Shown: positions 24,233-61,112 of the stretch, one piece after another | Layout: each line of letters begins with the position of its first letter | Position numbering within the stretch: position 1 is the first letter of the stretch | Assembly (NCBI RefSeq): GCF_048771995.1 | Contig: NC_133028.1 | Coordinates: forward strand, 2,066,501-2,130,500 | DNA from: Taeniopygia guttata | Lineage: Eukaryota; Chordata; Aves; Passeriformes; Estrildidae | Reading direction: 5' to 3' | DNA length: 64,000 nucleotides | The notes under the pieces: model-generated | Database searches by the model: none | The model's input: the letters and a program-made list of their open reading frames with translations, nothing else | What the model was told of the DNA's origin: nothing | Position numbers and translations under genes: made by a program

Positions 24233-31295
<7,063 letters not shown>

Positions 31296-32987: not shown

Positions 32988-35900
32988 ATGGCGCCCTGGC
33001 TGCCCACCAAGGAGAAGTTTGGCGTGGGTGAGTGGGGTCTGGGGGGTTCTGAGGGGGGTTCCAGTTGGTTGGAGGGGCGCAGGGATGAGGTGACATCCAC
33101 ACGGTGGTGGCGGTTGGGTGATGATGGTGGTGCCACTGTGAGGTGATGCCAGGAGGGCACCAAGTCCCTGCAGGGCTGGTGACAGAAGGCACAGGAACGG
33201 GGACAGTGCCAGCAGGACCCACGCAGCAGCCTTGCAGCACCCCCACTTTGATCCCCCCGTGCCCTGCAGCAGCCCTGGGCACCCCCACTCTCTGCAGCAC
33301 CCCCATTTCTGCTGGTTCTGGCAGCCCTTTGCTTCTTCCCTTTTCTTGTGGGGCCGTTTCCTGCACCCTTCCTCTGCATTTTCTGCAGTGCTGGAGCAAA
33401 AACTGAGCTGCTGCAGGGTCCTGGCAGGGTCCTGGGCATTGTCTGAGCTGCTGCAGGGTCCTGGCAGGGTCCTGGGCAGTGCCTGAGCTGCTGCAGGGTC
33501 CTGGCAGGGTCCTGGGCATTGCCTGAGCTGCTGCAGGGTTCTGGGCACCTCCTGAGCTGCTGCAGGGTCCTGGCAGAGTCCTGGGCATTGTCTGAGCTGC
33601 TGCAGGGTCCTGGCAGGGCATTGCCTGAGCTGCTGCAGGGTCCTGGGCACCTCCTGAGCTGCTGCAGGGTCCTGGGCATTGTCTGAGCTGCTGCAGGGTC
33701 CTGGCAGGGTCCTGGGCACCACCTGAGCTGCTGCAGGGTCCTGGCAGGGTCATGGGCATTGTCTGAGCTGCTGCAGGGTTCTGGGCATTGTCTGAGCTGC
33801 TGCAGGGTCCTGGCAGGGTCCTGGGCATTGCCTGAGCTGCTGCAGGGTCCTGGCAGGGTCCTGGGCATTGTCTGAGCTGCTGCAGGGTCCTGGCAGGGTC
33901 ATGGGCATTGTCTGAGCTGCTGCAGGGTCCTGGCAGGGTTCTGGGCAGTGCCTGAGCTGCTGCAGGGTCCTGGCAGGGTTCTGGGCAGTGCCTGAGCTGC
34001 TGCAGGGTCCTGGGCACCTCCTGAGCTGCTGCAGGGTCCTGGGCACCTCCTGAGCTGCTGCAGGGTCCTGGCAGGGTCATGAGCACCCCCTGAGCTGCTG
34101 CAGGGTCCTGGCAGGGTCCTGGGCACCACCTGAGCTGCTGCAGGGTCCTGGCAGGGTCCTGGGCATCACCTGAGCTGCTGCAGGGTCCTGGCAGGACATT
34201 GTCTGAGCTGCTGCAGGGTCCTGGGCACCACCTGAGCTGCTGCAGCTCCCAGCATGAGGAGCTCAGGGTGATAGGAGGGCTCCCGGTGCCCAGGTGGGTC
34301 TGGGGGTGCTGCAGGATGAGCTGGCCCTGCCTGGAGCTCAGGGTGGGCACAGGAATGGTGCTGGCAGGGACCCCTGGGTGCAGGGACTGTCCCCCAATCT
34401 GGGGACCAAAGCAGAGCTGTCCCTGGGGCCAGAAATAGCGACAGGGACAACCACAGCACAGCCAGGCAGGAAGCTGCTGGTCACCAAGAGCACCGCCCTC
34501 CTCCCCTGCCACCAGCTCTGCTGTCCCCAGACCTGTCCCTGGGCCACCAGACACTGTCCCTGGACCACCAGACACTGTCCCTGGACCACCAGGCACTGTC
34601 CCTGGACCACCAGACACTGTCCCTGGGCCACCAGACACTGTCCCTGGGCTACCAGACCTGTCCCTGGGCCACCAGACACTGTCCCTGAGCCACCAGACAC
34701 TGTTCCTGTGCCACCAGACCTGTCCCTGGGCCACCAGACACTGTCCCTGGGCTACCAGACCTGTCCCTGGGCCACCAGACCTGTCCCTGAGCCACCAGAC
34801 ACTGTCCCTGGGCCACCAGACCTGTCCCTGGGCCACCAGGCACTGTCCCTGGGCCACCAGACACTGTCCCTGGGCCACCAGACCTGTCTCTGGGCCACCA
34901 GACACTGTCTCTGGGCCACCAGACACTGTCCATGGGCCACCAGACCTGTCCCTGAGCCACCAGACACTGTCCCTGGGCCACCAGACCTGTCTCTGGGCCA
35001 CCAGACACTGTCTCTGGGCCACCAGACACTGTCCATGGGCCACCAGACCTGTCCCTGAGCCACCAGACACTGTCCCTGTGCCACCAGACCTATCCCTGTG
35101 CTACCAGACCTGTCCCTGGGCCACCAGACCTGGGCAGGGGCTCAGCTGGCACTTGCCTCCCTGCACTGCTTGTGCCAGGAGCAGGACCACCAGCACCCAG
35201 GGTGTGGGTGGCAGGCAGAGGGGTCCCTTATGGAACCCCTGAGTGCCAAAAAGGGGCTGGGGGCTTCTGCTGTGCCTGGGTTTGGGGTCAGGCTGCTTGG
35301 GGGTCTCATGCTGGTTGTGGGGCTGCAGCCCTTCCCCATCTCTCAGGGCTGAACAGGGGGCACCCATGGGGGGCTGGTTATGGGGTGCAGGTCCCCAAGG
35401 CTTGGGGGGGGCTGGTGAGGGGCTCCAGGAAGGGATCCCAACTCCCATCCCCTCTTCCCACAGCCGTGTGGAACTTCCCCCGCACCAAGGAGCATCACCT
35501 CCCGCTGCAGATCGGGGAGATGGTGCACATCCTGCAGGCCTCTGAGGGTAAGAGCACCCTTGGGTGCACCCCAGCATGGGTTCCTGCACCTCCTTTGTCC
35601 CCAAAACGGGGCCTGGCTGATGATGTCCCCTCCCCTTGCAGGCTGGTACTGCGGGTACTCGCTCCGGAACAGGGCTGCCCGGGTAGGTGAGGGGGTGCTG
35701 GGGTTTGGGGGGCACTGCTGGTGGCATTCTGTCCCTGCTGGGTGTCTGGGAGGGGGTGCTGGGTTTTGGGGGGGCACTGCTGGTGGCATTGTGTCCCTGC
35801 TGGGTGTCTGGGGGGGGGCTGCCCGGGTAGGTGAGGGGGTGCTGGGGTTTGGGGGGCACTGCTGGTGGCATTTTGTCCCTGCTGGGTGTCTGGGGGGTGG

Positions 35901-38900
35901 GCAGAGGGGGCATAGATAGCAGCTTGCCCTGTCCATGGGGGGACGCTGGGGTTTGGGGGGGCAGAGGGCATTCCAGGCTGGGCACCCTGTGGCATTGGGA
36001 GCCCCCAGCTGTGCCCACCTGAGGGAAATCTCCCATCCTGGGGGTGCTGATGGATTTATCTCCCTCAGGGCATCTTCCCAGCCTCGCTGATCCGGCTGAA
36101 GGGCACCGTGGTGGAGCAGCGGGGGTAGGTACAGGGCAGGGGCAGGGGCAGTGGGTCCCTGCGGTGCCAGGGCACTCCAGGGCTCCCTGTGCCCCCCACA
36201 GGGTGCAGGACAGCGTGGTGCCCTCCGAGATGCCCACGGTGCAGGAGATCACCACCACGCTGCGGGAGTGGGGCACCATCTGGAAGCAGCTCTATGTGGT
36301 GAGGGTTTGGGGGGTCTGGGTGTGGGGTGGGGGGATCTGGGAGCAGTTTTGGGGGCACCCCCATGACCCCGTGGTGCCCCCACAGGCCGGGCAGACGGAG
36401 CGCTACGGGCAGGTGAAGAGGATGATGCAGGAGCTGCTGGAGCAGCGCTCGCAGCTGCTCTCGGGGACGCTGCCCAAGGACCAACTCCTGCGGCTCAGGA
36501 AGGAGGTGACGGGCACGATGGACTATGGCAACAAGTGAGAGCGGGCACGGGGCACAGGGACACAAATCTGCCTCTGGCACGGGCTGATGGGCACTGCCTG
36601 GTGTGCCCATCGTCCCAGCTGGCTGTCCTGGGGTGGCTGGGTGCTGGAATCCGTGATATTGATGATTCCAGGATTGTAGAAAGTCTCTGTCTTTCAGCCC
36701 CGCTGCCAAAGAAAAGCCATAATTGGTCTGTGCTGGTTTCAAGGTTGTTTATTCTGTTTATCTCTAACATGTTCTGCTGCCCTGCCGCAGCTCTGTCCTG
36801 CAGGGCAGCGTGTGGGGCTCTGCCCTCAGTGGGATGGTACAAACATTATATACCAGAAACTACCTGTGCTGGATTTACAATATATTTAATATATATATAT
36901 ATTTAAATATATTTAATATATTACAATAACGTGCCAATATCTGTCGTCTACATTGAACAGTGTATCCCCAACCTAAACCCAGACCCAAGTTTATGGTCTA
37001 TAATATTGCAAACATTATATCTGGTACATAATGTTATAAACATAATATACCAGAAACCATCTGTGCTATATTTACAATAATGTGCCAATGTAACATCCCT
37101 CAGTGGCATGTTACAAACATTATATACCAGAAATTACATGTGCTGTATTTACAATATATTTTATATATATATATTTAAATATACATATTTAAATCTATTT
37201 AATATATTACAATAACGTACCGATATCTGTCACCTACATTGAACAGTGTGTCACCAACCTAAACCCAGTCCACAGTTTCTGGTATATAATGTTACAAACA
37301 TAAATATATATATATATATATACCACAAACTACCTGTGCTGGATTTACAATAACGTGCCAATATCTGTCACCTACGTTGAACAGTGTGTCCCCAGCCTAA
37401 ACCAACAGAAAAATGCCAACACCACAGTGAAACATGGAGGGCATGAAGAAGGAGGAAAAGGACAAGGCACACCCAATTTCCTCCATCTTGTCCCCTTTGA
37501 ACCCCTTATCTAGAATCATAAAATTTTACTTTTGCACCCGTGCCACACTTAATTATTACTGATATCAAACACTCAGAGCTGGTAATTCATCCTGTAAGAT
37601 TGAAAACTCTTTTCCATGGACAGAGATCACAGACAGTGTCTCTGGGGGCTCTGTCCAGGGGGGTTCCTGACCCCTGCCAGGGTCCCAGGGCAGACAGAAG
37701 GAAGCCCTGGATGCCACCAGCTGCTCAAGCCACCCGGCCGAGGGTTATGGCTGGGCCAGGAATGTTCCTGGTGCTGCCAACTCCTGTCCCCTTTGCCAGT
37801 GGCGTCTGAGGGGACAGGAGGTGCAAGGACACGTGAGTCCTGGGGGGACACACAGCCCCGTGTGGCCCCACTGCTGCCTCACCCCGTGCCTGCCCCTGCA
37901 GGATCCTCGCTCTGGACCTGGTGGTGCGGGATGAGGAGGAGAACATCCTGGACCCTGACAGGAGCAGCGTCATCAGCCTCTTCCAGGCTCACAGGAGAGC
38001 AGCACAGACCCTCACCCAGCGCATCCAGGAGGAGACGGTGAGGCCGCTGCCAACCCTGCACCCAGAGCTTGATATCCCCTGTGCCAGGGGATGTGCCAGG
38101 GGATGTGGCAGGGGCTGAGCCGTGGGGCTGAGCCACCTCGTGCCCCCCAGAGCTCGCAGCAGAGAGCAGCCGGCCATGGCACCCATGGGTGCACTTCGCC
38201 CTCCCACAATCTCTACCTCTGCGTGCGGAACTTCGTCTGCCACATCGGGGAGGAGGCGCAGCTCTTCATGGCCCTCTACGACCCCGGCCAGCAGCGCATC
38301 ATCAGGTGGGGTCCTGGAGCTCAGGACAGACCCCTGCCCTGCTGGATGCTCGGCCTGCTGTCCCCTGTGGTGTTCCCCACCCATCCAGAAGGACCCAGCG
38401 GGTGTCCCAGGGGGAGGGGGCACTGGGCATGGCGTGCCAACCATGCAGCACATCCCATGGCACAGCCCACAGCTCCTCCTGGCACTGGTGAAGTGACCAG
38501 CGCGGTGACTGGGGACACTGGTGGGCTGTGGGGTCGGTAGGGGCTCTGCCACCCCGGTGCCCACCTCAAGCATCACCCACCCCACAGCGAGAACTACGTG
38601 ATCTGCTGGGCCAGCACCGGCGTCCCCCAGGACATCGAGCTGCTCAACAACCTCAAGGTCGTGTTCACGGTGAGTGGAGACCCCCGGGGGAACCCCACTG
38701 CTGCCTCCCACCTCCCCCTCCTGCAGATCTGCTCCCACCCACAGCATTTGGGGTGCCCCGTGTCCCCCTTCCTCCCGCATCAGCCCCGCTGCTCGTGTAC
38801 CCCCATCCCCTTCCCAGATCCCTGACGTGGCACCCGCCCTGGCGGTGCCCCTTGGGGTGCCCTACCGGTGCCGGGGGTCTCGGGGTGCCCCGTTCCCGCT

Positions 38901-41900
38901 CGTCCCACGCCCCTCGGCACCCGCTGCTGACTCAGCGCTTTGGCTGCTGACCCCCGGGACACCGCGGAGCAATCGAGATGCAAATGAGGCAAGGAAAATC
39001 AATGTTAATGAGCAGCATCAGCACTTCGGCTCCGCTGCCTCCCTCTGCTCTGCTCGCTGCTGATGTCCCCGCGTGTCCCCACGCGTTGTGGCGTGTCCCC
39101 ATCCCTTGTCCTTAGCGCCGCTGGAAGGTTTTGGCGCAGGGGCAGCACCCGAGGGACCCGATCCCCTCCCCAGTGTCGCCGGAGTTGGGTACAGGGCCAC
39201 CCTGACATCCTTATGCCATGCCAGCTTGACCCCCGCTGGCCCAACTGCCTGGTCTAGGGTGACCTGTTGTCACCGTGGGTCCTGCCATTGTCCCCACCGC
39301 GGGGTTTTGGGGCTCCTGGGGTGCACAGAGACCCCCAGGGCAGCGGGGCTGTGTGCCACTGTCCCCACGGTGCGGGGCAGCGGGGTAGCTCTGTGCCCAC
39401 GGGCACGCCGAGATCACCTGGCACTGGCATGTCCCCTGCGGTGCTGCCAGGGTGACACGGCCCCTGTCTGTCCCCCCAGGACCTGGGCAGCGCCGACCTG
39501 AAGAGGGAGCGGCTGTTCCTGGTGTGCCAAATCATCCGGGTGGGGCGCATGGACCTGCGGGACAGCCACAGCCGCAAGCTCAGCACGGGGCTGCGCCGGC
39601 CCTTCGGCATCTCAGGTGGGGCTGGGCTCCCCAGGGACACCCGTGCCACCACCCTGGCACTGCCACCACCTCTGCAATGTCCCCGGGCTGCTCCTGCTGT
39701 CCCTTTTCCCTGCCTGCAGACCGCAGCTCTCGGAGGGGCTGTCCCCACGCTGTCCCCTCTGTGCTGTCCCTGCCCCAGGGACGCAGCACCCACCCTGTCC
39801 TGGGTGGGAGTGCCACCCCTGCCACGGTGCCACCTCTGTGTCACTGCAGTGATGGACATCACCGACATCACCAAGGGGACGTGTGACAGCGACGAGGACA
39901 AGCAGCACTTCATCCCCGTCCACCTGTGAGCCCCGAGGGTGGGGGGAGTGCTGGGGAGCAGCACCCCAAAGCCTGGCTGGCATGGGGACACCGGCTGCCA
40001 GGGGACAAGAGGGACAAGGACCAAAGAGAAAAGGTTTTTCTCCTAAATGTGGCATTTCCAGGGTGGCTGCTGATGGTGATTTCCTTCACAACATGATCCG
40101 GAAGGCGGTGGAGGGGAAGGACATCAACCACAAGGGACAAGGTAGAGACCCTGTGTCCCCTGGGCCATCTGCTTGTCACATGAGGCAGTCCCTGCAGGGT
40201 CCAGGACTTGGTGGCTCCTGTCACGGTGGTCCCTGCAGGGCTCTGGGTGTCCCTGAAGATGCTGTGGGGAGACCTGAGCCAGGTGAGGAAGGACCACCCT
40301 CACCTGGTGGATCGCTGCACGGCCGTGGCTCGCAAGCTGGGCTACCCCGAGGTCATCATGCCAGGCAAGTGCTGGGGGGGGACAAGCCTGGGGGTCCCTG
40401 GGGATGGCAGTACGGTGGCAGGACCTGGTGTGATCACCTGGCTGTGTCCCCCAGGTGATGTCAGGAACGACATCTACCTGACCCTGGTGCAGGGTGAGTT
40501 CGACAAGGGCAACAAGAAGACGCCGAAGAACGTGGAGGTGACCGTGTGTGTCTGTGACGAGGCAGGAAATGTGGTGCAGGTATGGCGGGTGTCCCCTGTG
40601 TCACCTCACCTCAGGTAGAGCCAGCAGCTCCAGCAGCAAGGCTGGAGGAGCCTCTTGGCCCACTGGAGCTGCCTGGAATGGAGATCTGGGAATAGAATAA
40701 AGATATGGGAAAGTGCTGTGAAGGGACAGAGAAAAAATTGTCCTCCCTTGGGGACAGCCTGGCCGTCCCCAGTGCCCCCCGGCATCCATGCCCAGGACAG
40801 GAAGGAGCTGGGGGCAGGCAGGAGGGCAGGGAGGGTCAGACCCAAGTGTCACCTCCCCAGGCTGGCTCTTGCCTCTCTCCAGGCGTTGTGACACCGGTTC
40901 TTGCCGGGCTCCTGAGGGATGGGCTGGAATTGCTGAGGGTGGTGCCCTGATGTGCCCTGGGGGGCCATGTGTCCCCTCAGAGGTGGCACCAGACCTGGTG
41001 GAGGTGGAGGGGAAGGAGTTTGGCAAGGTGTGGGCAGGGAGGGGAGTCTGGGGCATGGGAATTGTCCCTGCCTGGGAGGCCATTTGGGCTAATCCTGAGG
41101 TGTCTCCTCCTGCAGAACGTGATCCACGCTGGAGCAGGGGACAGCCCCAGCAGCCACTACCGCTCTGTTGTCTACTACCAGCAGCGGCACCAGCGCTGGA
41201 TGGAGACCCTGAAGGTCTGGGGATCCCTGGGCACAGGGGCTGGGGTGGGACAAGGCTGCAGCCCCCCCCAGGCTGTGCCCCTCACTCGTCCTGCTGCTGT
41301 AGGGGAGTCCCTTTTAGGGCAGACGTTTTGGGGTCCCATCTCAGGGATGATGGAGGTGCTGCTGGGGTCACAGCATGTCCCCTGGATGGACACCCAGCAT
41401 GACCAGTGCTGGGGAGGGTGGCACTGCAGCCCTGTCCCCATCCCAGTGTCCCCAGTTCAGCCTCACTGGTTGACTGGGAAGGCTGTGGGGTTGGTTTACA
41501 GCAGTGGATGGCCTGGCACAACCCCTGCCTGGCACACAGGGGCTGTGTGCCCACGCCCTGCCCTCACCTTGGCACACATTCCCACCCAGATTGCTGTTCC
41601 CATCGAGGACGTCCACAGGACCCACCTGAGGTTCACCTTCCGCCACCGCTCCTCCAGCGACTGTGAGTGTCCCTTGCTCCAGGCCTTCCTCCCAGCCCTG
41701 CCTGTCCCTTCCTGCAGATGTGTCCCTGGTCCCCTCACCTGCCCCCCGTGTGTCCCCCCAGCCAAGGACCGCAGCGAGCGGATTTTCTCCATGGCCTTTG
41801 TGAGGCTGATGCGCCCCGATGGCACCACGCTGCGGGATGGGGAGCACGACCTGGTGCTCTACAAGGTATGGGGGGGACCACAGAGCCCCCTAAAGTGGGT

Positions 41901-44900
41901 TGGGGGGCTGTGGGACAGCAGCACTTCTGGGGCCGGGGTGCCAGTCCCTGCCTGAGGCACGGCGCTGGTGGCACGTACCCAAAGTCCCCGAGGCTTTGCG
42001 GTGCCTCCCCGCTGTCCTCGCTGTCCTTGGTGGCACACAGCATCTCCAATCCCCGTGCTGCTCCTTTGGAATGACAAGTTTTGTTCGGGAGGAGGTGATT
42101 TAAGCCTTTGTGACGGGCAGGGAACGTCCCCGTGGTGTGGCTGCGCTTCACCTGATTTCACCAGCCCTGGCACCGCTCGGGTTTGCTCCCAGAGAGTGGA
42201 AGGGAGGCAAAATCGCTGTTCATTGGGGAAAAAACGCTGTCAGCTTTAATCTGAAGGTCTCCTGAAGGCGCTGCCCCCTTACCTGGTGTCCCCTCCCCAG
42301 ACTGGCATCGCTGTGACCAGAGGAATGGGAGGCACAAGTTGGTCCCCGCTGCCACGGCGAGCTCTGGGCTCTTCCCTGTGTGTTGAGACCTTCTGGGGTC
42401 CCTTTTGGGGTCCCTTTTGGGGTCCCTTCTGGGGTCATGGAGCTCCAGTGTCCCTGGATGGGGGGGTCACCTTCTCCCCTGGGCTGCTGCATGGGAGTGG
42501 TCTCTGATTTTGGCAACGTGACCACAGTTTCTCCAGGCAGAGCCACGTCCCTCCCCAAATCTGCCTTTTTTTGGGATGAGACAACCTGCTCCTGCCTGCT
42601 GTGGCATTCCAGGACGGGGACAGACCACGCTGTTCCTCCCTGAGGCTCCTGCACATTTGAAATCATTATTATGTCCCTCCACCCTGCTTTATTTTTGGGT
42701 AAAAGACCCAAATTCTTTAACTGCTGCCATGGCCCTCGGCGCTGGCCCTGGTCCCTGCCTCTTTGGGGACTGTCCCCTCCACAGCAGCAGCACTGAGCAC
42801 CTTTGGGACGTGCCATTGCTGGCTTTGGCAGTGAGATCAAACCTCCCACACCTCCCTGCTAGGAGAACAAACCCCCCAAACCTCCCTTCTGGGTCTGTGC
42901 TCCCCTCAGAGAGCTGTCCCTGCCCTCCTGAACCTCTCCCTGCAGGCACGGGGGGCTGAATTCTGGGAGTCAGAAGCTATTTCATCTTTTTGTCTCTGCT
43001 TGCCAGAGGAATGTGAGTGAAGGGCTTTCAGCTGCTCAGACCTCTTGATCTCCAGCTGCTCTGAGCTCCAGACAGTTTTTCCCTGCGTGGGCACAGCCCT
43101 GGGAAGGAGCACAGGCTCTAGATGTGTCCTGGAAAGGAAAATCCAGCAGCAAACAGCTCTGTCACCTCCATCCCACCTTCAGCACCTTCACCATCACCCT
43201 GCCAGGCTGCAGGCAGGGAAGGGTGGATGTCTGTGAGCTGCAGCCTGGCTGCCTGGCTCTGCTCAGCCCCCACATCCCAGGCTGGCCAACGAGCAGGGAA
43301 AGTCACTCAGAGTCACCCCAGTGAGTCCTCCTGCACGGAACATTTCCACCCTACAGCAGGGGACACAGAAAAAGGCTGGTTTGTGGCTGTGGAGGCCCTG
43401 GCGTGCCCATAGAGGGTGACAGCGATGTGGGACTGGCTGTCCTGGACACTTGGGTGGTGTCCTGCCCCATGTCAGTGTCCTACTGCATGTCCATCCCTGC
43501 AGAAGTGTTGAATTTCCAGCCTCAGACTCCTCTTGGTCACTCTTGTCCTGTCCCTGTCACTGTCGAGGCAGGATGGGAATGAGAAGACTCTGACCAGAAG
43601 CTGCTGAGAGTAAAACTCAGATTTATTCATAATACACTGCTCATTTATACAGAGCTTTGTGAGGACCAAATCCACTTGTTCTGAAGTGAAAACCATTTAA
43701 AGCATTGGTGTACAGTGCTTGATGCACAGTGATAGAACTTACCTATAAACAATGTGAGAAACAAGAGAGATAAAGAATTATTTACATTCTCTCCAGCTCT
43801 TTTCCAGGCTTCTGCCTGGCTAGAAACTCTTGTTTCTCTCTTTGACTGAATCTGAGTCCCACATGTCCCCACTGTGGGACAGATGGGGTTTGGTGGCTCC
43901 CCCAGCCGATTGTCCCAGCTGAGCAGGGTCCCTCAGGGAGCACCTTTGTGGGATTGATGGGCACCCAGGGGTGGGATGAGGGTGCTGTGTGGTGGGATCC
44001 ACCAGCCATGGGGTCAGAACCGAGCCCCTGGGGCCAACCCCATCACCGCGGGGCTCCGGTTGTCACCTTGTGCCCTGCAGGGTGACAGCAAGAAGCTGGA
44101 GGATGCCAGCGTGTACCTGTCCCTGCCCTCGGAGCGGAACCTGTCGGAATCCAAACTCCTCTCTGGTTCCTCCTTCCGTGTGAGCGGGGCCACGCCGGCT
44201 TTGGCCGTGTCCAGCCGGGACAGCTTCCAAATCTCCACTCTGGTCTGCTCCACCAAGCTGACCCAGAATGGTGAGTCCTGGTTCCCCACGGCGGGGGCGG
44301 TGGGGCTGTGTCCCCTCCCTGGTGGACTAAATTTGGGATATTTGGCTCTCCAGTGTTCCTCACGCTGGGACAGGGAGCTGAGGGCAGTGGGGGCAGTGAT
44401 GCTCAGTCGCTGTTTGGCCGTGGTCAGGATGGCCAAGGCTGTTCCTGGGGAGATCAGCTCCATCTGGGCATTTTGGGGGGCTGCCATCCACGGGAGAGGA
44501 GCAACAGCGAGTGGAATTCCCACTTGAATGTTGTCGGAATCTGTGGGTATTGGTGATTCCAGGATTGTAGAAAGTCTCTGTCTGTCAGCCCCATTGCCAA
44601 AGAAGAAGCCATAATTGGTCTGTGCTGGTTTCAAGGTTGTTTATTCTGTTTATCTCTAACATGTTCTGCTGCCCTGCCGCAGCTCTGTCCTGCAGGGCAG
44701 CGTGTGGGGCTCTGCCCTCAGTGGGATGTTACAAACATTAAATACCACAAACTACCTGTGCTGGATTTACAATAACGTGCCAATATCTGTCACCTACGTT
44801 GGACAGTGTGTCCCCAGCCTAAACCAACAGAAAAATGCCAACACCACAGTGAAACATGGAGGGCATGAAGAAGGAGAAAAAGGACAAGACACACCCAATT

Positions 44901-50900: not shown

Positions 50901-53458
50901 CCCAGGGTCCCCTGTCCCCAGGGTCCCCCCATTGTGCACCCTGAAACCCCAAGCCCCCATCCCCAGAGTCCCCTGTCCCCAGGGTCCCCCTCCTGTCCCC
51001 AGGGTCCCTCCTGGTGCACCCTGAGACTCCCAGCCCCTGTCCCCAGGGCTCTGGGGGCCCTGTTTGAAGGCAGCTCTGCGGTGTCTCTGCAGGGAGCAGC
51101 TCTGAAGTATCTGCCCTCCATCCTCGACGACGTGTTTGGGATCTTTGACTCCTCCACTCTGGGGTAGGGTCCCTGTGTCCCCACCCTGTGTCCTGCCCAG
51201 CAGCTGCCACCGCCACCTCTGTCCCTGCACCCAGCGCAGCGCTGAGGGCAAGGGCAGGCAGGGGGGTCTGGCATCACCTCCTGATCCCCTTCCCAGTGCA
51301 AAAATGGCAGAGTTCTGCTCAGTTTATCAGCTGCCTGTGCTTGGGCAGGGCTGAGCCTGAGAACTCGGCCCTAGCTGGGTTCCTTTTGGGGAACTGCCCC
51401 ATCGAGGGGGTCCCCCCACCCACCAGCCCCATCCTGAGCAGGACCTGGAGCTCCTGCTGTCACTGCTGTCCTATGGCAGGGCCATCCTGCGGGATTTTGT
51501 GGGGAAGCTGCTGCCCCAGCGCCTGCTGAAGCAGAAGCTGCAATCCCTGAGTGACATTGCCACCAGCAGAGCCTTCCAGTCCCACGGTGAGATGGGTCCT
51601 GCTGGCACTGCCTTGCTGAGCTCCCCCAGAGGCCATGGCACAGGCTGGGACCCCTCCTCTGCCTCGTGCCCGGGGTGGCACCACAATTGGGGACAATTCC
51701 CTCATGCCCATGCCCCCCTGTGCCCCGCAGAGTGCCGGGAGCTGGTGCTGCAGGCGGCCCTGCCCATCCTGCAGGAGCTGATCCAGGCAGGGGAGGAGGA
51801 GGACGCCTGCATCCAGCTGCTCAGCAGCATCCTGGAAGTGCTGTGCCAGGCCCAGAAGGTAAATCAGGAATCTGTGACCCAGCCAAACCCCTCTCAGTGG
51901 GGTTCAGCACCAGTTCCTGGTCAGGATATTGGGGGTGTCACCGTCCCAGCAGGGTGGGACACAAACCTGGTGCTTTCCACCTCAGCATGTTTCTGCTGGG
52001 TTGTCTGACATCCACACGAGTGGGGAAGGGATGACACCGACCTGAGGGTGGTGGGGACATCACCAGCTCTGCAGGGCTGGGAGGGAGGGAGGAAGAAATC
52101 GAGGGGAGGGAAGAAGGTGAGGGCACATCGATAATGGATGGTGGAAGATCTGGAGAGACATTTTGTGGTATTGGCCAATTGTCTACTGGCAAACCGACCA
52201 AGAGGGTTGAGAATGGCTTTTCTGGATTTGAATAAGTCAAACAAATGTTATCCAAGCCTGATGCATTGGCCAAGGTCACTCAAACATTGGGTTTTGGTTT
52301 GATTTATGGGCTGGATCACGTTATTTAAGGCAAACAATGAAGTAATAAGGCATAAGTATGATATTTGATTTAGTTTAATATTTTTCTTTGGTTTCCTTTC
52401 TGATTCAAGGCACTTTTTCTTTTTTCTCTTTTCCCAATTCTATTTTGGGACAGGCCAAACGTAATTAAAATTTCAATGGCCTTATACCTGATATGAAATC
52501 CTGCTGGTCAGTGATTACCGGTCAGCCCCTGGGCAGTATCACACTCCAAAAGGAAGAGTGATGGCTCCAAACACGAGGCAGGGACATGGTGGGCACCCAC
52601 CCACCCAAATGTGGCCCGTCTGGGATGGGCTGGGGCCATTCCTGGGGGTCTCATCTCTGTTTCTGGTGATTGCAGAGCGCAGAGGGGCTGCGAGCGCGGC
52701 ACAAGGACCGTGGGGACGTGGAGCTGGTGAGTGTCCCTGCAGCAGCACGGCACTTTGGGAATGCTCAGGGCTCTGTGCTCTGCCTTTTCAGGGCCTTCCT
52801 CTCTGTTCCTGCCCTCCCTGGATGCTCAGGGGTCCCTCCTGGGGGCTTGGGAGGTTCAGGTGTCCCACCTGCAGTGCAGTGACTGGTGCTGTGGCAGCTG
52901 AGCTGGACACTGTGTGCTGGGAGGGTGAGGTGGTTCTTTAACCCCCACAGCACCAGGAAGCCCAGGAATGGGCTGGAAAGCTCAGAAATTGTGGAGAAAT
53001 GTCTCATGGACTTTTAAACCTGAAGTAGCCTTTATGGAGAGTGTGGTGGGGCGCTCTGGGGCGAGGATTTTGCTCTTGCTTCAACCCCATGAGAGCTGAA
53101 CCCACCTTTACCTGCCCAGCGCCATGCCCATCATGCTCAGCCATCCTTGGCTGTCCCCATTGTCCCCAGCTGGGTGGCCACCATGCCAGGGAGGCACACA
53201 GAGATCCCAAATCCCGTATTTATACAGGAGCACATTGCCCTGCTCTGACTCCAGCTCCATTCCCGTGTCACCACCCCAGTGCCACCCAGAAGGAGCCAAG
53301 CTGGGACACATCCCACAGCTGGGACACGCCCTGCCATGGCCCTGCCACCTCTTCCCTTGCAGGCACAGGTGAAGAAGCACATCCAGATGGTCCTGGAGCA
53401 GCTGCTCCACACAGTTAACCGCAGGGTGATCGTGCTGGAGCGGGAGAACCCGCTGAGG
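32988..53458 (+). CDS. DOCK2-like: DOCK-A family Rac GEF, DOCK2-like, N-terminal half (continues past window)
   Basis: Atypical guanine-nucleotide exchange factor family that activates Rac with ELMO at the plasma membrane. Exons: 32988-33027, 35464-35547, 35642-35682, 36069-36124, 36202-36298, 36386-36534, 37902-38037, 38151-38305, 38588-38669, 39480-39615, 39850-39925, 40062-40141, 40239-40364, 40455-40579, 41116-41214, 41590-41662, 41762-41865, 44081-44270, 45396-45493, 45608-45697, 45902-46002, 47480-47614, 50319-50430, 51093-51163, 51480-51586, 51731-51858, 52676-52726, 53363-53458. The frame is open for 946 codons. An SH3 domain spans about residues 11-66 and the DHR-1 (C2) lipid-binding domain starts near [19 protein letters not shown] (residue 420). 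[23 protein letters not shown] and [14 protein letters not shown] favour DOCK2 over DOCK1/5. The catalytic DHR-2 lies beyond the window. Intron 13 has a GC donor (CCAG|GCAAGT). Confidence 0.93.
33405..34250. repeat. About 40-bp minisatellite in DOCK intron 1
   Basis: Over twenty copies of a unit reading CTGAGCTGCTGCAGGGTCCT plus GGCAGGGTCCTGGGCATTG. Copies with one or two CTGGCAGGG blocks alternate. Confidence 0.96.
34520..35130. repeat. About 21-bp minisatellite in DOCK intron 1
   Basis: Array of CACTGTCCCTGGGCCACCAGA units with shorter CCTGTCCCTGGGCCACCAGA variants. It is open in both orientations and gives spurious frames of up to 761 codons together with the array before it. Confidence 0.95.
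35672..35900. repeat. 144-bp tandem duplication including the DOCK exon 3 end and donor
   Basis: The sequence GGCTGCCCGG|GTAGGTGAGG, ending exon 3 at 35682, recurs at 35817-35836 with the following intron sequence. A partial copy of the intron part lies between them, so intron 3 holds an exact decoy donor 144 bp downstream. Confidence 0.9.
36636..37722 (-). mobile_element. Solo LTR with expanded middle, ERVL-like avian family
   Basis: Solo LTR in DOCK intron 6, antisense to the gene, with its AATAAA on the minus strand at about 36748. Closely related to the LTR at 44.5-45.15 kb but about 450 bp longer, because an AT-rich segment (TATATACCAGAAACTACCTG and following bases) is repeated about three times at 36835-37390. 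No internal retroviral genes. Moderately young by similarity to its sister copy. Confidence 0.8.
38925..38985 (+). promoter_or_regulatory. Intronic MARE and octamer motifs
   Basis: In DOCK intron 9, TGCTGACTCAGCG (38925-38937) is one base from a perfect Maf recognition element and includes an NF-E2/AP-1 core. ATGCAAAT (38978-38985) is a perfect POU octamer. Both sit in a non-repetitive island reaching about 39060. Such sites are typical of blood-cell enhancers. Confidence 0.45.
43540..43864 (-). mobile_element. Probable solo LTR, family uncertain
   Basis: AT-rich block of about 325 bp in DOCK intron 17. On the minus strand it starts TGTGGGACTC, has a TATAAAT motif and AATAAATCTGAGTTTTACTC near its end, and finishes in ACA. 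This fits a short class II-type avian LTR. No internal genes. Ends approximate. Confidence 0.6.
44529..45150 (-). mobile_element. Solo LTR, ERVL-like avian family
   Basis: About 620-bp LTR in DOCK intron 18, same family and orientation as the copy in intron 6, including the AATAAACAACCTTGAAACCA region and the CTTCCTCTGG start region. Solo, with no internal genes seen. Confidence 0.8.
46020..47455. repeat. GGGACAG minisatellite in DOCK intron 21
   Basis: Nearly 1.45 kb of GGGACAGTGCTGGGACAGCT, GGGACAGGGAA and GGATGGGGCT blocks. It starts about 20 bp after exon 21 and ends about 25 bp before exon 22. The GA-rich strand is the coding strand. Confidence 0.97.
47615..48500. repeat. CTCCCAGTG minisatellite at the start of DOCK intron 22
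   Basis: About 885 bp of the 9-mer CTCCCAGTG with CCCCCAGTG and CTCCCAGGG variants. It begins within the splice donor of exon 22 (GCCCA|GTGAGTGCTCCCAGTG), and each unit repeats the donor core CCCAGTG. Confidence 0.96.
48530..49115. repeat. CCCCACAGTGACCCTG minisatellite in DOCK intron 22
   Basis: About 35 units of 15-18 bp reading CCCCACAGTGACCCTG or CCCCACAGTGTCCCTG. Each unit holds a CCCCACAG acceptor-like tract. Confidence 0.95.
49810..49915 (+). mobile_element. CR1 LINE 3' end fragment
   Basis: CATGGCAGGGGTTGGGACTG followed by GGGCCCTTCCAGCCCAAAC matches the conserved CR1 tail (GGTTGGAACTAGATGATCTT, GGTCCCTTCCAACCCAAAC). Diverged, truncated copy in DOCK intron 22. CR1 is the dominant LINE of birds and reptiles. 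Confidence 0.8.
50620..51055. repeat. CCCTGTCCCCAGGGTCC minisatellite in DOCK intron 23
   Basis: Units alternating CCCAGCCCCTGTCCCCAG and GTCCCTCCTTGTGCACCCTG. It ends about 40 bp before exon 24. Confidence 0.9.
52080..52510 (-). mobile_element. Possible retroviral env fossil fragment
   Basis: AT-rich island in DOCK intron 26. On the minus strand a short open stretch reads like the surface part of a retroviral envelope ([20 protein letters not shown]). No gag or pol nearby. Broken remnant, probably old; the assignment is by general resemblance only. Confidence 0.4.
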
Positions 53459-53949
53459 GTGAGTCCCGCTGCGCCGCTCCCCTTCGGGTCACACGGGGGA
53501 TATGTCACTGATTTTGGGGGGCTGGGTGTGTGTGAATGGCTCTGCTCCTCGCCAGCCCTGCTGCCAGGACCCAGCAGGGTGGGGATGGATGCCGGGGAAG
53601 TGCCCGGGGGGATGCAGGGGGAAGTGGAACCGTGCTGGGTTCCTGCTGGAGTAGGGGTGAGTGGGTTTGGGGGTGCAGAGGTGTAGAAAAAGCTGGTTGG
53701 GGAGCAGAGAAGGGTTTGGGCCACGTTATCTGGAGAACAAGCTGCCAAACACAGCGAGCCGCCGCGGTTTTACACGCCAAAAACATGTGAGCAGCACGCT
53801 GGGCACACGCCAAGGGAGGGGGAGAGAGCCGGGGCCACCGGGGGTTCGGGCTCTTCTTTGGGGACATGGTGACAAACCCAGGGCTGCAGTGCGGTTTAGG
53901 GTGGGCGATGAGCCGTGTTGGTGTGTGTGGTGGGAGCTGGGAGCGGGGA

Positions 53950-54345
53950 ATTGCCGTGCCGTGCCGTACCGTGCCGTACCGTGCTGTGCCGTACCGTGCC
54001 ATACCGTGCCGTACCGTGCCATACCGTCCATCATCCATCCATCCATCATCCATCCATCATCCATCCATCATCCATCCATCATCCATCCATCATCCATCCA
54101 TCCATCCATCATCCATCCATCCATCCATCATCCATCCATCCATCCATCCATCATCCATCCATCATCCATCCATCCATCCATCCATCATCCATCCATCCAT
54201 CCATCCATCATCCATCCATCATCCATCCATCATCCATCCATCATCCATCCATCCATCCATCCATCCATCCATCATCCATCATCCATCCATCATCCATCCA
54301 TCCATCCATCCATCATCCATCCATCCATCCATCATCCATCATCCA
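53950..54345. repeat. CCGTACCGTG and (ATCC)n array
   Basis: A short decamer run (CCGTACCGTG) passes directly into over 300 bp of CCATCCATCATCCATCCATC. Two adjacent simple arrays with different units. Confidence 0.95.
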
Positions 54346-54450
54346 GGGAAATCCAGGGAAACAACCTCTTCCCCCTCCTCATTCTCACCCTCCTGGCGAA
54401 CAGAAGCTCACAGGCGGGAGAGGATTAACAAAAATAGCGTCTCCTGGGAA

Positions 54451-54456
54451 TTTATT
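54451..54456 (-). terminator. Polyadenylation signal of the INSYN2-like gene
   Basis: AATAAA on the minus strand, about 165 nt after the stop codon. Confidence 0.65.
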
Positions 54457-54619
54457 GAATTCTCCTTCACTCCAGCACTGCTCCCTCGCCCTTCCCACCC
54501 CCGAGCTCCCCGGCCTTCAGCGGAATGGTTGAAAATAGAAACGCTGGTGCTGCCCAAACCCCACCGTGGAGGGAGGGGAGGTGGGCAGGGGGGCAGCGCT
54601 GGCACGGTGCCCCCCGGGC

Positions 54620-57600
54620 TCACAGGAACCAGAAGCATTTGCGGCGGGATTTCTTCACGTCCAGCTTTGCCGGCAGCCTCGGCACGGGTGAGGGCTCCTG
54701 CTGGGGGGGTGAGGGGGTCCCCGCCGCCCCCAGAGCCACCCCCAGAGCCGCCGGGGGGGAGCTCGGCCCCGTGTCACCCTCGATGTGGCTCAGCACCCGC
54801 TGGAAGCGACCCTCCTGCTGTCGGAAATCGTGCTCCACGCTGCGGCAGCGGGACCGAGGGGACCGTGTCAGGGGGCAGCGTGGCATCCCCTTGTCACAGC
54901 CCCCCCAGCTGCCACTGCCCCCCGCTTGCCACGGCCCCCCATCTGCCATGGCCCCTGGTACCCCAAACACCGCCCCTGGTACCCCAAACACCGCCCCTGG
55001 TACCCCAAAACAGCCCCCGGGGAGCTCAGTGTCCCCAAACAGCCCCCGGGGAGCTCAGTGTCCCCAAAACAGCCCCCGAGGAGCTCAGTGTCCCCAACAG
55101 AGCACACAGGGAGCTCAGTGTCCCCAAAACAGCCCCCGAGGAGCTCAGTGTCCCCAAAATAGCCCCTGAGGAGCTCAGGGTCCCCAAACAGCCCCCGGGG
55201 AGCTCAGTGTCCCCAAACAGCCCCCGGGGAGCTCAGTGTCCCCAAAACAGACCCCGAGGAGCTCAGTGTCCCCAACAGAGCACACAGGGAGCTCAGTGTC
55301 CCCAACAGAGCACACGGGGAGCTCAGTGTCCCCAAAACAGCCCCCGGGGAGCTCAGTGTCCCCAAACAGCCTCAGGGGAGCTCAGTGTCCTCAACAGGGC
55401 ACACAGGGAGCTCAGTGTCCCCAAACAGCCCCAAGGGAGCTCAGTGTCCCCAAAACAGCCCCCGGTGTCCCCGCAGCCCCCTCAGTGTCCCCGCATCCCT
55501 CAGTGTCCCCAAAACAGCCCCCGGTGTCCCTGCACCCCTCAGTGTCCCTGCAGCCCCCGGTGTCCCTGCAGCCCCCGATGTCCCTGAAGCTTTGGTGTCC
55601 CCGCATCCCTCAGTGTCCCCGCATCCCCCCGAGGTGCGGGCTGGCTGCTGGCAGCCACGTGCTGCGATGTCCCCTCCCAGGGAAATCGCCTCAATCTCCT
55701 CACAGCAGCCACGTCCCATCTCATCAGCGCGGTGCCACCCGGTGTGCCCGGGAATGTGCACATGGCACTGCCACCCCGCACACGGGGAGCCCCCCAGCTG
55801 CTGACACCTCCTGTCACCTCCTGTCACCTCCCCTGGCGAGGACAAGAGTGTCCCAGCCACTTCTAGAGAAAAGGGTGAGGGGTGCAGCACAGGGAGAGGC
55901 CTCAACTCCCCTGCAGTGACACAAGGAAGGGTTGGCACCGCCGTGGGATGGGACAGACAGGTCTGATCCCCTCCATGGGCCATCCCTGGGGTCTGCTGCT
56001 GGGGGTGCTGCCCCTTGTCCCTCACCTGTGTCCCCCCAGAGCCTCTCCTCATCCCATGGGTGGTGGCAAAAGCCACAGCGAGTCCCCAGTGGGAGCCTGG
56101 CTGTCCAGGGAGCCACCTCCCCCAGATGTGACATTGTGCTGCTGCCACACTGCTGCAGACAGGCTCGTCAGGCCTAATTAGACTAAAATCCCCCAAGGAG
56201 TGGGGAGCAAGTGGGTGTGGGGAGCAGGAGCGCTGAGGCAGCACCGCCACTGAGCGCAGGGACACCAGGGGACCCCCCAGCCGGGCACCCCCAGCCTGAG
56301 GTGCCCCAAGGAGGGGGCACAGTGCTCACAGAGGGTGGCAGGGCAGTGGCACATGTGCACTGTGGTGATCAGGCACTACAGAGCTACACCATGTCCTACT
56401 AACAGCAAAAGGGGGACACAGCTGGCCAGCCACCTGCACTGCAGAGGGACAGCCAGAGGGACAGAAGGACACCCAGGGCTGCCTGGAAGGGCAGCAAGCT
56501 TTAGCAAAGCTGCAATCCTCCCAGTTCCCCCTCAGATGATGCTGGGAGGGCACGAGATGCCTTTTCCTACACACCAAATGGGGTCTGAGGAGAAGGCAGC
56601 AGAGGAAGGGGCTTCCAGAGCCCAGGCCTGTGTTCCCAAAGCTCAGCGAGGGGCAGGAACCCATCTGCAGCCTCTGTGCAGAGCTGCACGGGGACAGCAG
56701 GATGCAGCCTGCATTTGGAGCAAGAGAGGCTTCCCCAATAGATTGTTGGTGCAGGAGATAAATGCTCTGCCATCCTGCCAGGGCAGCCCCTTCCAGATGC
56801 TGCTCCTCCATGGAGATCACCCTGGCTGATCCTCATCTGCGAGGGCTGAGTGACAGCCCAGACACCCAAAAGCGCTCTGTGTGTGGTGTCCCCAACACGG
56901 GGACAACCTTGTCACCCTCCCTCCTGCCTCACAGCCAGGGGAGAAGTCTGGGGGTGCAGGGGATGCTCGGAGCCAGGGCTGGCCCTCACCTGTAGATGAT
57001 GCAGGCACAGTCCCGGCACGTCCCGCAGTTGGCGATGTCCTGCCCGGTCCGGTACGAGTGTCGCCTGGGACAGAGATGTGACATGAGCTTGGACACCTGC
57101 TCTGGGTCTGTCTGTGTCCCCTGCTGCCCCTCCAGCAGCCAGGAGCAGGACTGTCCTCCCTGGAGCCCAGCTCCTTTTCTTCCTGGGATTCAGACCCTCT
57201 TGTCCCTGTATCTCCTGAATCCCACCCCCTTTCCTCTCTGGGATCCATCTCCTCCCTGGATCCCAGCTCCTTTCCTCTCTGGGATCCATCTCCTCTCCTC
57301 CCTGCATCCCAGCTCCTTTTCTTCCTGGGATCCATCTCCTCTCCTCCCTGCATCCCAGCTCCTTTTCTTCCTGGGATTTAGACCCTCTTGACCCTGTATC
57401 TCCTCCCTGGATCCCCCCCCTTTCCTCTCTGGGATCCATCTCCTCCCTGGATCCCAGTTTCTTTTCTTCCTGGGATTCAGACCCTCTTGTCCCTGTATTT
57501 CCTGAATCCCAGCTCCTCTTCCTCTCTGGGATCCATCTCCTCCCTGGATCTCAGTTCCTCTTCCTCTCTGGGATCCATCTCCTCCCTGCATCCCAGCTCC

Positions 57601-60600
57601 TTTTCTTTCTGGGATTCAGACCCTCTTGTCCCTGTATCTCCTGAATCCCAGCTCCTCTTCCTCTCTGGGATCCATCTCCTCTCCTCCCTGGATCCCAGCT
57701 CCTTTTCTCCTTGGGATTCAGACCCTCTTGTCCCTGTATCTCCTGAATCCCACCCCCTTTCCTCTCTGGGATCCATCTCCTCCCTGGATCCCAGCTCCTC
57801 TTCCTCTCTGGGATCCATCTCCTCCCTGAATCCCACCCCCTTTCCTCTCTGGGATCCATCTCCTCTCCTCCCTGGATCTCAGTTCCTCTTCCTCTCTGGG
57901 ATCCATCTCCTCTCCTCCCTGGATCCCAGCTCCTTTTCTCTTTGGGATTCAGACCCTCTTGTCCCTGTATCTTCTGAATCCCAGCTCCTCTTCCTCTCTG
58001 GGATCCATCTCCTCCCTGGATCCCAGCTCCTCTTCCTTTCTGGGATCCATCTCCTCCCTGGATCCCAGCTCCTTTTCCTCTCTGGGATCCATCTCCTCTC
58101 CTCCCTGGATCCCACCCCCTTTCCTCTCTGGGATCCATCTCCTCCCTGGATCTCAGTTCCTCTTCCTCTCTGGGATCCATCTCCTCTCCTCCCTGGATCC
58201 CCCCCTTTCCTCTCTGGGATCCAGCCCCTCTCCACCCCTGTGACCCCAATTAACACCAAGCCAGGCGCTTCTCTGATGGGATCACACCAGTGCAGGGCAC
58301 AGTGGCATCTCCCAACCCTTCCTGCTGTGTCCTGCCCTCCCCTCCCTATCCCAAACCTCATCCCAAGGGTCCCCACGCCTGCAGCCCCCAGGTCACCTCA
58401 CACCTCCCCACACCTGGTGCCAGGGAGGGAGCACAGGGCACACGGTGCTGCCCTGGCAGATGGGCACAGGGAGATGTTCCAGGCTAATGCTCCTTCTGCT
58501 CTGCCCAAAATGAGCCCTGTGAATGCTGTTGGTCCCTTTGGGACCCCTTTTCTCCATGTCTCCATTGCCCCTTCAGGGCTGTGGATTTTGGGGGCACAGC
58601 TGAAAGAACACGTCCCACATACACCTCACATTTCCCCGTTGAAATCTTCCTCCTGTTACTCGACCTTGACCACGGTTGTTCTCAGCCCTCAGAAACTGGG
58701 TCTGTTAATGCACCAAATTACACATTGCAATGGGGATTTATTCTGCCAGCACCTGAATTAGATCATGAGGTCCTTTATACAGACATATATATATATATGT
58801 GGTAGGTAAATGTGTATGTGCCTGTGGCGTTGTACAACAACCCCCCTCTGCTGGGAGAGCTCATCCTGGGATAGTATTTCACGTTTTACATATAAAAATT
58901 CTTGTGGGATGTTGCTGGTGGTCAGTGCCAGGATGTCTCAGGGCTGGTGGCCCTGCTCTGGTGTGCAGTGGGCACAGGGGATGTGACCTGTGGCAAACGA
59001 GGCTCTGCTGTTCTGCAGGATAAGGACACCAGGAGAATGTTTTATGTGATTTTCTATCCCTGGATTTCCTGTCTCTGGGCATCTTTTGTTGCTTATTTGT
59101 AATAGTAAACAGAGTTGAGGTCTTAATTAAGCACTGCCAGTGCTCCAGGGGTGGCACAGGGGCAACAGCCAAAGGCATCTGATTTAACAGCTGGATCCCA
59201 GAAATCTCAGGCATCAGGAACAAGCCCCAGGGATGGTACAGGAGATGCCAGGCCCAGCACCTCTGGGGGGTTTGTTGGTTGCCCTCGTGTGAGATGAGTT
59301 TGGAGCATTTCAGATTAAGACCTAGAAGACCTTCCTCAATTTGGCAGATCTGCCTGGAGGGCCAAGGAATGCTGGCCTGGGGATAATTCCCTGCCCCTTG
59401 GAGCAGCTCCTGAGCAGCAGGGCAGGATGGGGGTGCTGGGCACCTCCCCGGGGTGCAGCCAAACCCATCAAGAGGGCACCAGCCGCTGGATTTGTGCCAA
59501 AGGTGCCTCCGTGGATGGGGCAGGGATGTGGTGCCTGGCTAAGCCATTGGGATGTGACATTCTAGATCCCTGCTCCCAGTGCCCAGTGGAGAAATCAGCT
59601 GCAGCACCCCCTCACACCCCACACCTGCACCCCTGGGCACCGTGGGCACACGAGACCTTGGCACCAACACGAGGAGCCACACTCAGGTGGACAGCAGCTC
59701 CGAGTTTCTCAGAGGGGAACACCCCAAGGAGGCAGCAGCACCCAAATTTCTGTCAGGGTCTCTCATCCTCCATCCCCAACCCTCACGGACATTGTCCCCA
59801 CAGCTCTGTCCCCTCCTACTCACCCATCCCGCTGCGCCTCCTTCTTCTCCAGGTCCTGGATGACATCCAGCAGCACCCGGATGGTTTGCTGGCTGGTCTC
59901 CAGCACCCCTTCCAGGGACTGCAGCTGGGAATGCAGGTCCCCCTGCTCCCCGGGCCCTCGGGGGGGCTGTCCCTGAGATGTCCGGCCGTCCTCATCCCTC
60001 GCCGGTGCTCCCACCGGCCCCTTGGCCACCACCACCAGCTGCAGAAGGTCCTGGACGGGGTGTGGCGTGTCCGTCTCCTGGGTGGCTCTGTGGGGCTGTC
60101 CGTGCCGGGGGGTCTCTGCTGTCCCCACGCTGGTGTCCTGTGGGGCTGTGGCCAGTGGCTCCGTGGGTCCTGCCCAGCCGTGCCAACCCGGAGCTGGCGG
60201 GGCACAGCAGGGTCCCCCACGGAACGTGGCACAAAGCTGGTGCTGGGGTGACGGGTGGTCCCGCGTGGGGTTGCCCTGAGCTGGCTGTCCCCTGAGGAGT
60301 CCCTGCGTGTCCTGGCCGTGGGGCAGGGTCCTCTCCGAGCCGCTCCGACCGAGCCCCCGCTGCTCACCGGGTGGCCGGGGCTGGCCGCAGGGCACGGAGG
60401 CGGGGCGGGGGGTGACACCGTGGTCACCCCGAGGGTTCCCCCGGAGCTGGGCACGGAGCTGGGCACGGACCGGGGGTGGCGGGCAGGGCTCGGGGGTGCA
60501 GCTTTGCAGCGGAGGGGCGCAGCGGGCAGCGGGGCAACCCCGGTAAGGGGGAGGGGGGTCCCTGGGTGGTGGCGGCGGAGGTGTGCGCTGCACCTTTGCG

Positions 60601-61112
60601 TGCTGGGCGAGCACCACGGGGCCATCGCGGGTGGGGAGATCACCGGGGACCCGCGTGGGCAGCACGGCCGGTGGTAGTAGCGCATCCTCCGCCACATCGC
60701 AGACGCTCTTGCTGCGGGGCTGGGGGGCCGGGAAGGGTTTCTGGAGGCTGGGCGAGGTCTGGATGGCGGCGCTCATGCACATCTTCCTGGGCATGGGCAG
60801 CGTCAGCGAGCCCGGCTGCGCCTGGGGCCAGCTGCGCCGGGAGGCACGGAGAGCCGCCGGCTCAGGGGGGTCCCTGGGGGGCGGAGAGGCACGTAGGGTG
60901 TTGTGACCGGGGCCGGTCGCGGACTCGGGTGGGGTGCCGGCATCCACCAGGTCCTTGAAGCGGACCTGCTGCGTGCGGTTGCGGCGGCGCTTGAGGCGGC
61001 TCTCGATGTCGGGCGAGTCGCGGTTGAGCAGCACCGAGCGCACCGTCATGGCTTTCTCCTGGCTGCCCTCGCCCCCGGGGGCCGCACCGGGCACGGGCTC
61101 ACGGCTGACCAT
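54620..61112 (-). CDS. INSYN2-like: INSYN2 (FAM196) family protein nested antisense in the DOCK gene
   Basis: INSYN2 proteins are components of the inhibitory postsynaptic density (gephyrin-associated). Exons 59824-61112, 56990-57064 and 54620-54839 give 527 aa. Family blocks in order: MVSREP start; basic [17 protein letters not shown] (about 40-55); [10 protein letters not shown] (116-125; human VQTSPDLKK); a long proline-rich linker; coiled coil [20 protein letters not shown]; then exon 2 [15 protein letters not shown] plus RDCACIIYS, almost identical to INSYN2A; then [20 protein letters not shown] and the aromatic C-terminus KCFWFL (human KLWFL). A splice acceptor at 61370 (minus) just upstream of the ATG exon indicates at least one noncoding 5' exon. 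INSYN2A sits inside DOCK1 and INSYN2B inside DOCK2 in mammals, in this same antisense arrangement. Confidence 0.93.
54955..55640. repeat. About 29-bp minisatellite in INSYN2-like intron 2
   Basis: Units reading GGAGCTCAGTGTCCCCAAAA plus CAGCCCCCG, with ACAGAGCACACAGG variants, grading into shorter CCCGGTGTCCCTGCAGC units from about 55460. Confidence 0.94.
57170..58225. repeat. Composite minisatellite in INSYN2-like intron 1
   Basis: Blocks TCTCTGGGATCCATCTCCTC, CCTGGATCCCAGCTCCT and TGGGATTCAGACCCTCTTGT in variable order over about 1.05 kb, starting about 105 bp upstream (on the gene strand) of the middle exon. It yields a spurious 457-codon frame. Confidence 0.94.
58226..59823. other. Rest of INSYN2-like intron 1
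   Basis: Moderately AT-rich DNA without an exon or array. A short (TA)n run lies at about 58782-58798. No transposon could be named with confidence. Confidence 0.45.

Follow-up and report, generated by a model that had tools for sequence, protein, structure and literature searches.

Proteins of the DOCK-A subfamily associate with ELMO and use their DHR2 domain to activate Rac, INSYN2 proteins are inhibitory synapse factors, and INSYN2B (FAM196B) is located in an intron of DOCK2. In the available part of PMC7203823, DOCK2, INSYN2B, FOXI1 and TLX3 are listed in one region, and the available part of PMC6135963 places DOCK1, FAM196A and FOXI2 in the cluster at the GnRH3 locus and DOCK5 beside GnRH1. 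According to the accessible portion of PMC2446394, the regions of TLX1, TLX2 and TLX3, together with a fourth one on human chromosome 8, derive from two genome duplications, with TLX, LBX, LOXL, DOK, FGF-NPM, KCNIP and SLIT as paralogon neighbours. DOCK2 and FOXI1 stand at TLX3 and PCGF1 and DQX1 at TLX2 in that portion, whose TLX2 neighbour lists name no DOCK gene. Here we analyze a 64,000-nucleotide stretch of zebra finch (Taeniopygia guttata) DNA (NC_133028.1, positions 2,066,501 to 2,130,500; the window), which carries the 5' half of a DOCK-A gene, here called DOCK-X, and on the opposite strand a gene of the INSYN2 family, INSYN2-X. We consider it highly probable that the two form the TLX2-linked pair in a series of DOCK-A/INSYN2 pairs that arose by chromosome duplication in early vertebrates, and that DOCK-X, the fourth DOCK-A gene, has DOCK2 as its nearest paralogue.

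The visible part of DOCK-X comprises exons 1-28 (32988..53458, plus strand), which join to 2838 nt, or 946 codons, with 0 stops, the same codon count as in the earlier sequence-only reading. Exon 1 (32988..33027) holds the start codon, and the Accipiter and Charadrius relatives start with MAPWLPTK; exon 28 (53363..53458), the last in the window according to the exon model and the alignments of relatives, ends in a phase-0 donor, GTGAGT. All phases are consistent; of the 27 complete introns, 26 have GT-AG ends and one, intron 13 after exon 13 (40239..40364), is GC-AG. The model was picked for an open frame and for lengths fitting DOCK relatives, with the exon 25 acceptor especially resting on fit, so the lack of stops is by itself no proof. 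The same joined exons contain 37 and 15 stops in the two other frames, and the DOCK proteins of other birds match DOCK-X exon by exon. The window protein has the DOCK-A domain order, namely an N-terminal SH3 (SH3_2, 21.7 bits, just below the 21.8 cut-off), DOCK_N, DHR1 (C2) and TPR, with the Pfam scores of DOCK_N, DOCK-C2 and TPR_DOCK far over their cut-offs. The GC donor of intron 13 (gcaagt) is at 40365. A stretch of exon 27 (52676-52726) lacks a counterpart in the human DOCK5 alignment; Accipiter DOCK-X has a similar stretch, and the Charadrius and lungfish models have none.

INSYN2-X is a complete open reading frame (ORF) of 527 residues ending in CFWFL-stop, with three minus-strand coding exons defined by the ORF model and the alignments of relatives: exon 1 (59824..61112, start codon at 61112), exon 2 (56990..57064) and exon 3 with the stop codon (54620..54839). 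Its residues 388-527 correspond to positions 363-489 of the Pfam FAM196 profile at 190 bits against a cut-off of 27, which bears out the family named from the sequence. The best relative, the Taeniopygia guttata protein A0A674GH00 (P0235, 'INSYN2B protein-like'), is 97% identical over the full query, equal in length, and aligns to exactly these three exons. The top two DOCK relatives by score are 83% and 90% identical across the full query. With such identity over the whole of both queries, the sequences argue that neither gene can be due to chance.

To place DOCK-X, we used a careful, unrooted tree of 30 rows and 1015 columns, with 12 X rows (window included), 15 DOCK2 rows, and DOCK1 and DOCK5; the X rows were chosen by hand, and 111 of the listed matches score best against DOCK-X. 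The window DOCK falls in its own clade of 12 from birds, turtles, a crocodilian, lungfish and sturgeon (support 100/100). The DOCK2 clade holds 15 proteins, whose range extends from cartilaginous fishes to birds plus one mammal (support 100/100), and DOCK1 pairs with DOCK5 on the other side of the tree. The same groups, with a Shimodaira-Hasegawa-like approximate likelihood ratio (SH-aLRT) of 100 for the X clade, appear in a quicker tree of 37 rows, 14 of them X (window included); seven of its rows are absent from the 30-row tree, namely X_Corvus and X_Crocodylus (both of odd letter composition), D2_Corvus, D2_Eleginops, D2_Rhincodon, D2_Lynx and a human DOCK1 fragment. Approximately unbiased (AU) tests rejected amniote X forced together with amniote DOCK2 (297 log units, p-AU 1.6e-32), all X with bony-vertebrate DOCK2 (82 log units, p-AU 1.6e-19), X with DOCK5 (94 log units, p-AU 6.5e-07) and X with DOCK1 (95 log units, p-AU 7.6e-11); the clades for these tests were defined with the tree already in view, and the p values should not be taken strictly. 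Orthology to DOCK5, suggested by the Protein Data Bank ranking, is ruled out by the tree and the AU test, as is orthology to DOCK1.

DOCK-X and DOCK2 occur as different proteins in the same species in 10 of the 10 checked, which were chosen because they are named in both DOCK match lists: the birds Falco, Corvus, Meleagris, Junco, Probosciger, Aquila, Calidris and Chrysolophus and the turtles Gopherus and Pelusios. Ordinary DOCK2 models are present in the zebra finch as well. The sequence-only reading had called for a DOCK tree and named a protein inside the DOCK2 orthologues, in a genome with no second DOCK2, as the outcome that would speak against a further paralogue; the tree gave a separate clade instead. 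Sequence comparison thus supports DOCK-X as the DOCK-A paralogue of the TLX2 paralogon, a fourth one separate from DOCK1, DOCK2 and DOCK5 and not a translocated DOCK2. Its lineage is apparently older than the split of sharks and bony fishes. In the 30-row tree the end branch of the window DOCK-X is 0.15 vs 0.022 for Accipiter, with 0.015-0.029 for four bird DOCK2 rows, and the gene seems to be fast-evolving in this passerine.

INSYN2-X lies wholly 3' of DOCK-X exon 28 on the opposite strand, where the DOCK frame ends in a donor, in what the exon model and the alignments of relatives give as intron 28 (53459..64000, plus strand), open-ended in the window. Alignment of the Accipiter gentilis and Charadrius vociferus DOCK proteins found no DOCK exon after exon 28 within the window: the former (P0003) aligns to residue 954 of 1537 and the latter (P0016) to residue 903 of 1655, both ending at exon 28, and their later parts have no match in the window. 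Because the relatives' DOCK protein continues past exon 28, we infer that INSYN2-X is nested antisense in a DOCK-X intron whose far end is beyond the window, which follows if this bird's DOCK-X has a 3' half as its relatives do. The earlier placement at 32988-61112 gives the outer limits correctly; the nesting it included comes from the relatives, since the INSYN2 gene follows visible exon 28 and the window does not close the intron in which it stands. In Accipiter gentilis, Chelonia mydas, Protopterus annectens and Pitangus sulphuratus, four of the ten comparable species, the DOCK-X and INSYN2-X matches are on contigs of equal length, and both genes are therefore likely to be on one contig there.

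Relatives were listed as the best 120 of 1001 matches for DOCK and the best 120 of 298 for INSYN2, from candidates of 0.55-1.75 times the query length. In the INSYN2 list, the named relatives come from birds, turtles, lizards, salamanders, caecilians, lungfish, paddlefish, gar, teleosts, sharks, skates and a chimaera; 114 of the 120 have the signature VRS(A/V)L, 95 have IYSVEHDFR and 0 have neither. The contig with the INSYN2-X relative differs in length from that of DOCK2 in Heterodontus, Phrynocephalus, Lissotriton, Perca fluviatilis, Polyodon and Platysternon and from that of DOCK1 in Cetorhinus and Narcine. These eight differences in eight species speak for a third INSYN2 locus, to which the short contigs of Polyodon and Platysternon add little. 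Survival in birds, as first proposed, is too narrow a range: DOCK-X is also found in turtles, crocodilians, lungfish and sturgeon, and the INSYN2 relatives range from sharks to birds. No mammal is among the named INSYN2-X matches (9 of the 120 are unnamed) or the DOCK matches in these lists, which support, without proving, an apparent loss of the pair in mammals. Lizards, amphibians, teleosts and sharks have INSYN2-X relatives (P0297-P0354) and no DOCK-X among the best 120 of 1001 DOCK matches; DOCK models longer than 1655 aa are beyond the search's length bound. The guest INSYN2-X may have outlived its host.

With regard to origin, an ancestral chromosome in which an antisense INSYN2 already lay in a DOCK-A intron would have been duplicated in early vertebrates, giving several pairs. 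Such an origin before the two rounds of genome duplication, also put forward in the sequence-only reading, fits the tree and the published TLX paralogons (PMC2446394, available part), and it rests on parsimony and an unrooted tree. On these published regions, TLX2 is the locus at which a DOCK-A gene was missing, and DOCK-X supplies it. The unrooted tree, which shows only a split seemingly older than that of sharks and bony fishes, would also suit a local or segmental duplication before the jawed vertebrates as the source of DOCK-X and DOCK2. We regard that as unlikely, given that the neighbours of these loci themselves form published paralogons in the accessible portion of PMC2446394 and that a split of X plus DOCK2 from DOCK1 plus DOCK5 is the pattern expected of two rounds.

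Several points weigh against descent of the pair by chromosome duplication, or against parts of the evidence for it: (i) The DOCK tree has neither a root nor an invertebrate DOCK-A protein. (ii) DOCK5 is represented by one human sequence and DOCK1 by two cartilaginous fish sequences, with the human fragment added in the 37-row tree. (iii) That INSYN2-X is a third INSYN2 paralogue, apart from INSYN2A and INSYN2B, is no more than probable, the trees being of DOCK proteins. (iv) Contigs are unequal in six of the ten species (Cuculus, Hirundo, Caloenas, Dromaius, Eudromia and Agelaius); these seemingly come from different assemblies and so neither help nor hurt. (v) With lists of the best 120 and bounds on length, absences are weak evidence. 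(vi) The 3' half of DOCK-X is beyond the 64-kb window, and the DHR2 motif VDPAVMGG is absent in 26 of the 56 models longer than 1200 aa among matches P0001-P0111, 21 of the 26 being labelled partial. (vii) SLC4A5 and MTHFD2 lie near TLX2 in humans. The available part of PMC6135963 puts both next to DOCK5 in chicken and gar, and human TLX2 may thus sit in a region composed of pieces from two paralogons.

The unseen 3' half and the long end branch could also mean that the gene is decaying, this bird's DOCK-X being a pseudogene or a 5' fragment without a 3' half and INSYN2-X alone being active, and several DOCK-X models of other species stop at the equivalent of exon 28. We find this very unlikely: the 946 codons have no stop and every splice site is in place, and the longer bird models carry on, with VDPAVMGG in 30 of those 56 models. 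Several DOCK-X relatives also match three Pfam families, which we take to be the DHR2 lobes, and Charadrius DOCK-X is 64% identical to falcon DOCK2 in the 3' half and 57% in the 5' half. That an ordinary bird DOCK2 with its INSYN2B moved to the TLX2 locus, or was recently duplicated, is suggested by database labels, which are mostly DOCK2 or DOCK2-like for the proteins of birds, turtles and lungfish (DOCK1 for three bird models) and INSYN2B-like for many INSYN2 relatives, and by DOCK2 being the nearest known paralogue in the tree. This reading is extremely improbable, such a DOCK2 orthologue being ruled out by the tree, in which the X clade already includes lungfish and sturgeon proteins, by the two AU rejections of X with DOCK2 and by the two-gene species.

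On the favoured reading of a duplicated pair, DOCK-X would act like its relatives as an ELMO-bound Rac exchange factor, with SH3, DHR1 (C2) and TPR domains and, as in those relatives, DHR2, and INSYN2-X would act like INSYN2A and INSYN2B as a scaffold factor of inhibitory synapses. A CpG-rich stretch over the 5' end of INSYN2-X (60251..62000; observed/expected ratio (o/e) 0.76 against a window median of 0.33) passes a cut that 16 stretches across the window pass, and is a possible intragenic promoter of that gene. From its own CpG-rich promoter in the host intron, INSYN2-X would be transcribed towards the 5' half of DOCK-X. If the promoter is this stretch, it would fire against the host direction and interference would be likely; the two transcripts would collide, and strong expression of one would limit the other.

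Gene models at the host exon touch on the same question. DOCK2 and DOCK-X models of several species (P0070, P0086, P0099, P0117, P0119 and others) end in a short read-through right after the equivalent of exon 28, and since DOCK2 models read through the donor at the same residue, the position of the host intron is common to DOCK2 and DOCK-X. Of the models that lose homology before residue 1200, the end falls at 903-916 in 8 of 55 X-like ones and at 930-945 in 13 of 34 DOCK2-like ones; the 13 include the lungfish DOCK-X P0086, placed there by score. Both the search's length filter and gene-calling pipelines that may miss nested genes confound this clustering. The most frequent end of X-like models is a different one, residue 761-768 (27 of 55), probably through one annotation project. 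The ends at exon 28 may reflect early termination or intronic polyadenylation. A combined scenario, in which the nested pair pre-dates the vertebrate genome duplications, INSYN2-X outlived its host, and the host intron is a conserved early stop where antisense collision gives a short DOCK without its exchange domain, is speculative, with a low but real chance of being correct.

The neighbourhood agrees with the PCGF1-TLX2-DQX1 locus first proposed, in that PCGF1, a TLX-like homeobox and a DEAQ-box helicase were all found. A RING piece of 54 residues (6070-6231, minus strand) has PCGF1 as its best match. The homeodomain at 16230-16403 (plus strand), whose best chain is named only as a homeodomain-containing protein and whose second is human TLX2, is putatively TLX2, judging by its place. 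A DHX15-like N-terminal helicase piece (31002-31295, minus strand), identified by protein match, belongs to a gene with a DEAQ motif at 28538, which would be DQX1 from motif and place. Between the minus-strand helicase start and DOCK-X exon 1 is a CpG-rich stretch (30751..32750, o/e 0.84). The helicase gene and DOCK-X stand head to head over it, and it is a possible two-way promoter region. Nine of ten long ORFs in the left half of the window have no Pfam match, and the tenth gives two matches below their cut-offs, a weak one to RING and a collagen-like one. Minisatellite-like tandem repeats crowd the introns (33403-34224, 34527-35129, 46037-47456, 47618-49112, 54027-54345, 55003-55465 and 57340-58230) and may be a cause of broken gene models at this locus in other birds. 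Two alike stretches in DOCK-X introns (36650-37700 and 44540-45140), both with ttccaggattgtagaaagtctctg, are probably a dispersed repeat.

In the literature searched, which was open access, subscription journals being mostly outside it, no paper recognisably dealing with a third INSYN2, INSYN2C/FAM196C, a fourth DOCK-A or a bird DOCK ohnologue was found. The available main text of a paper on missing avian genes (PMC12954441) has no mention of dock, tlx2, insyn, pcgf1 or dqx1, and the accessible parts of PMC8805411 and PMC9492544 hold nothing decisive. Both genes already have database entries, filed under other genes' names, and none of the papers found describes them as a paralogue pair of their own. 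The vertebrate gene set would gain a fourth DOCK-A gene and, probably, another INSYN2 paralogue, its third. With entries mislabelled, two genes may be conflated in tables of orthologues and in DOCK2 expression data from birds. Having three host/guest pairs at paralogous loci, one can test what kept opposite-strand nesting in place through genome duplication, and likewise what the apparent loss of one pair in mammals means.

Set against known systems, the window protein finds its best Protein Data Bank match in DOCK5 (1029.5 bits), a rank probably due to stretches of 'X' in the DOCK2 chain there; it differs from DOCK5 in having 52% identity to the human chain and in the rejection of an X plus DOCK5 clade, and we know of no INSYN2 gene in DOCK5. 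DOCK1-INSYN2A (FAM196A) is like the pair here in that the window DOCK is 56% identical to two cartilaginous fish DOCK1 proteins, and unlike it in that X plus DOCK1 is rejected and DOCK1 pairs with DOCK5. Many of the database entries called 'DOCK2-like' in birds, turtles and lungfish and 'INSYN2B protein-like' from sharks to birds, names that come from annotation, are these two genes. DOCK2-INSYN2B at the TLX3 locus shares the same domains, 53-60% identity between the window DOCK and the DOCK2 rows, the same intron position after the exon ending ...NRxVI...L(I/R), and linkage to a TLX gene (PMC2446394, available part). It differs in that DOCK-X forms a separate clade, has PCGF1 and a DEAQ-box helicase as neighbours, and stands beside DOCK2 as a second gene in the same species.

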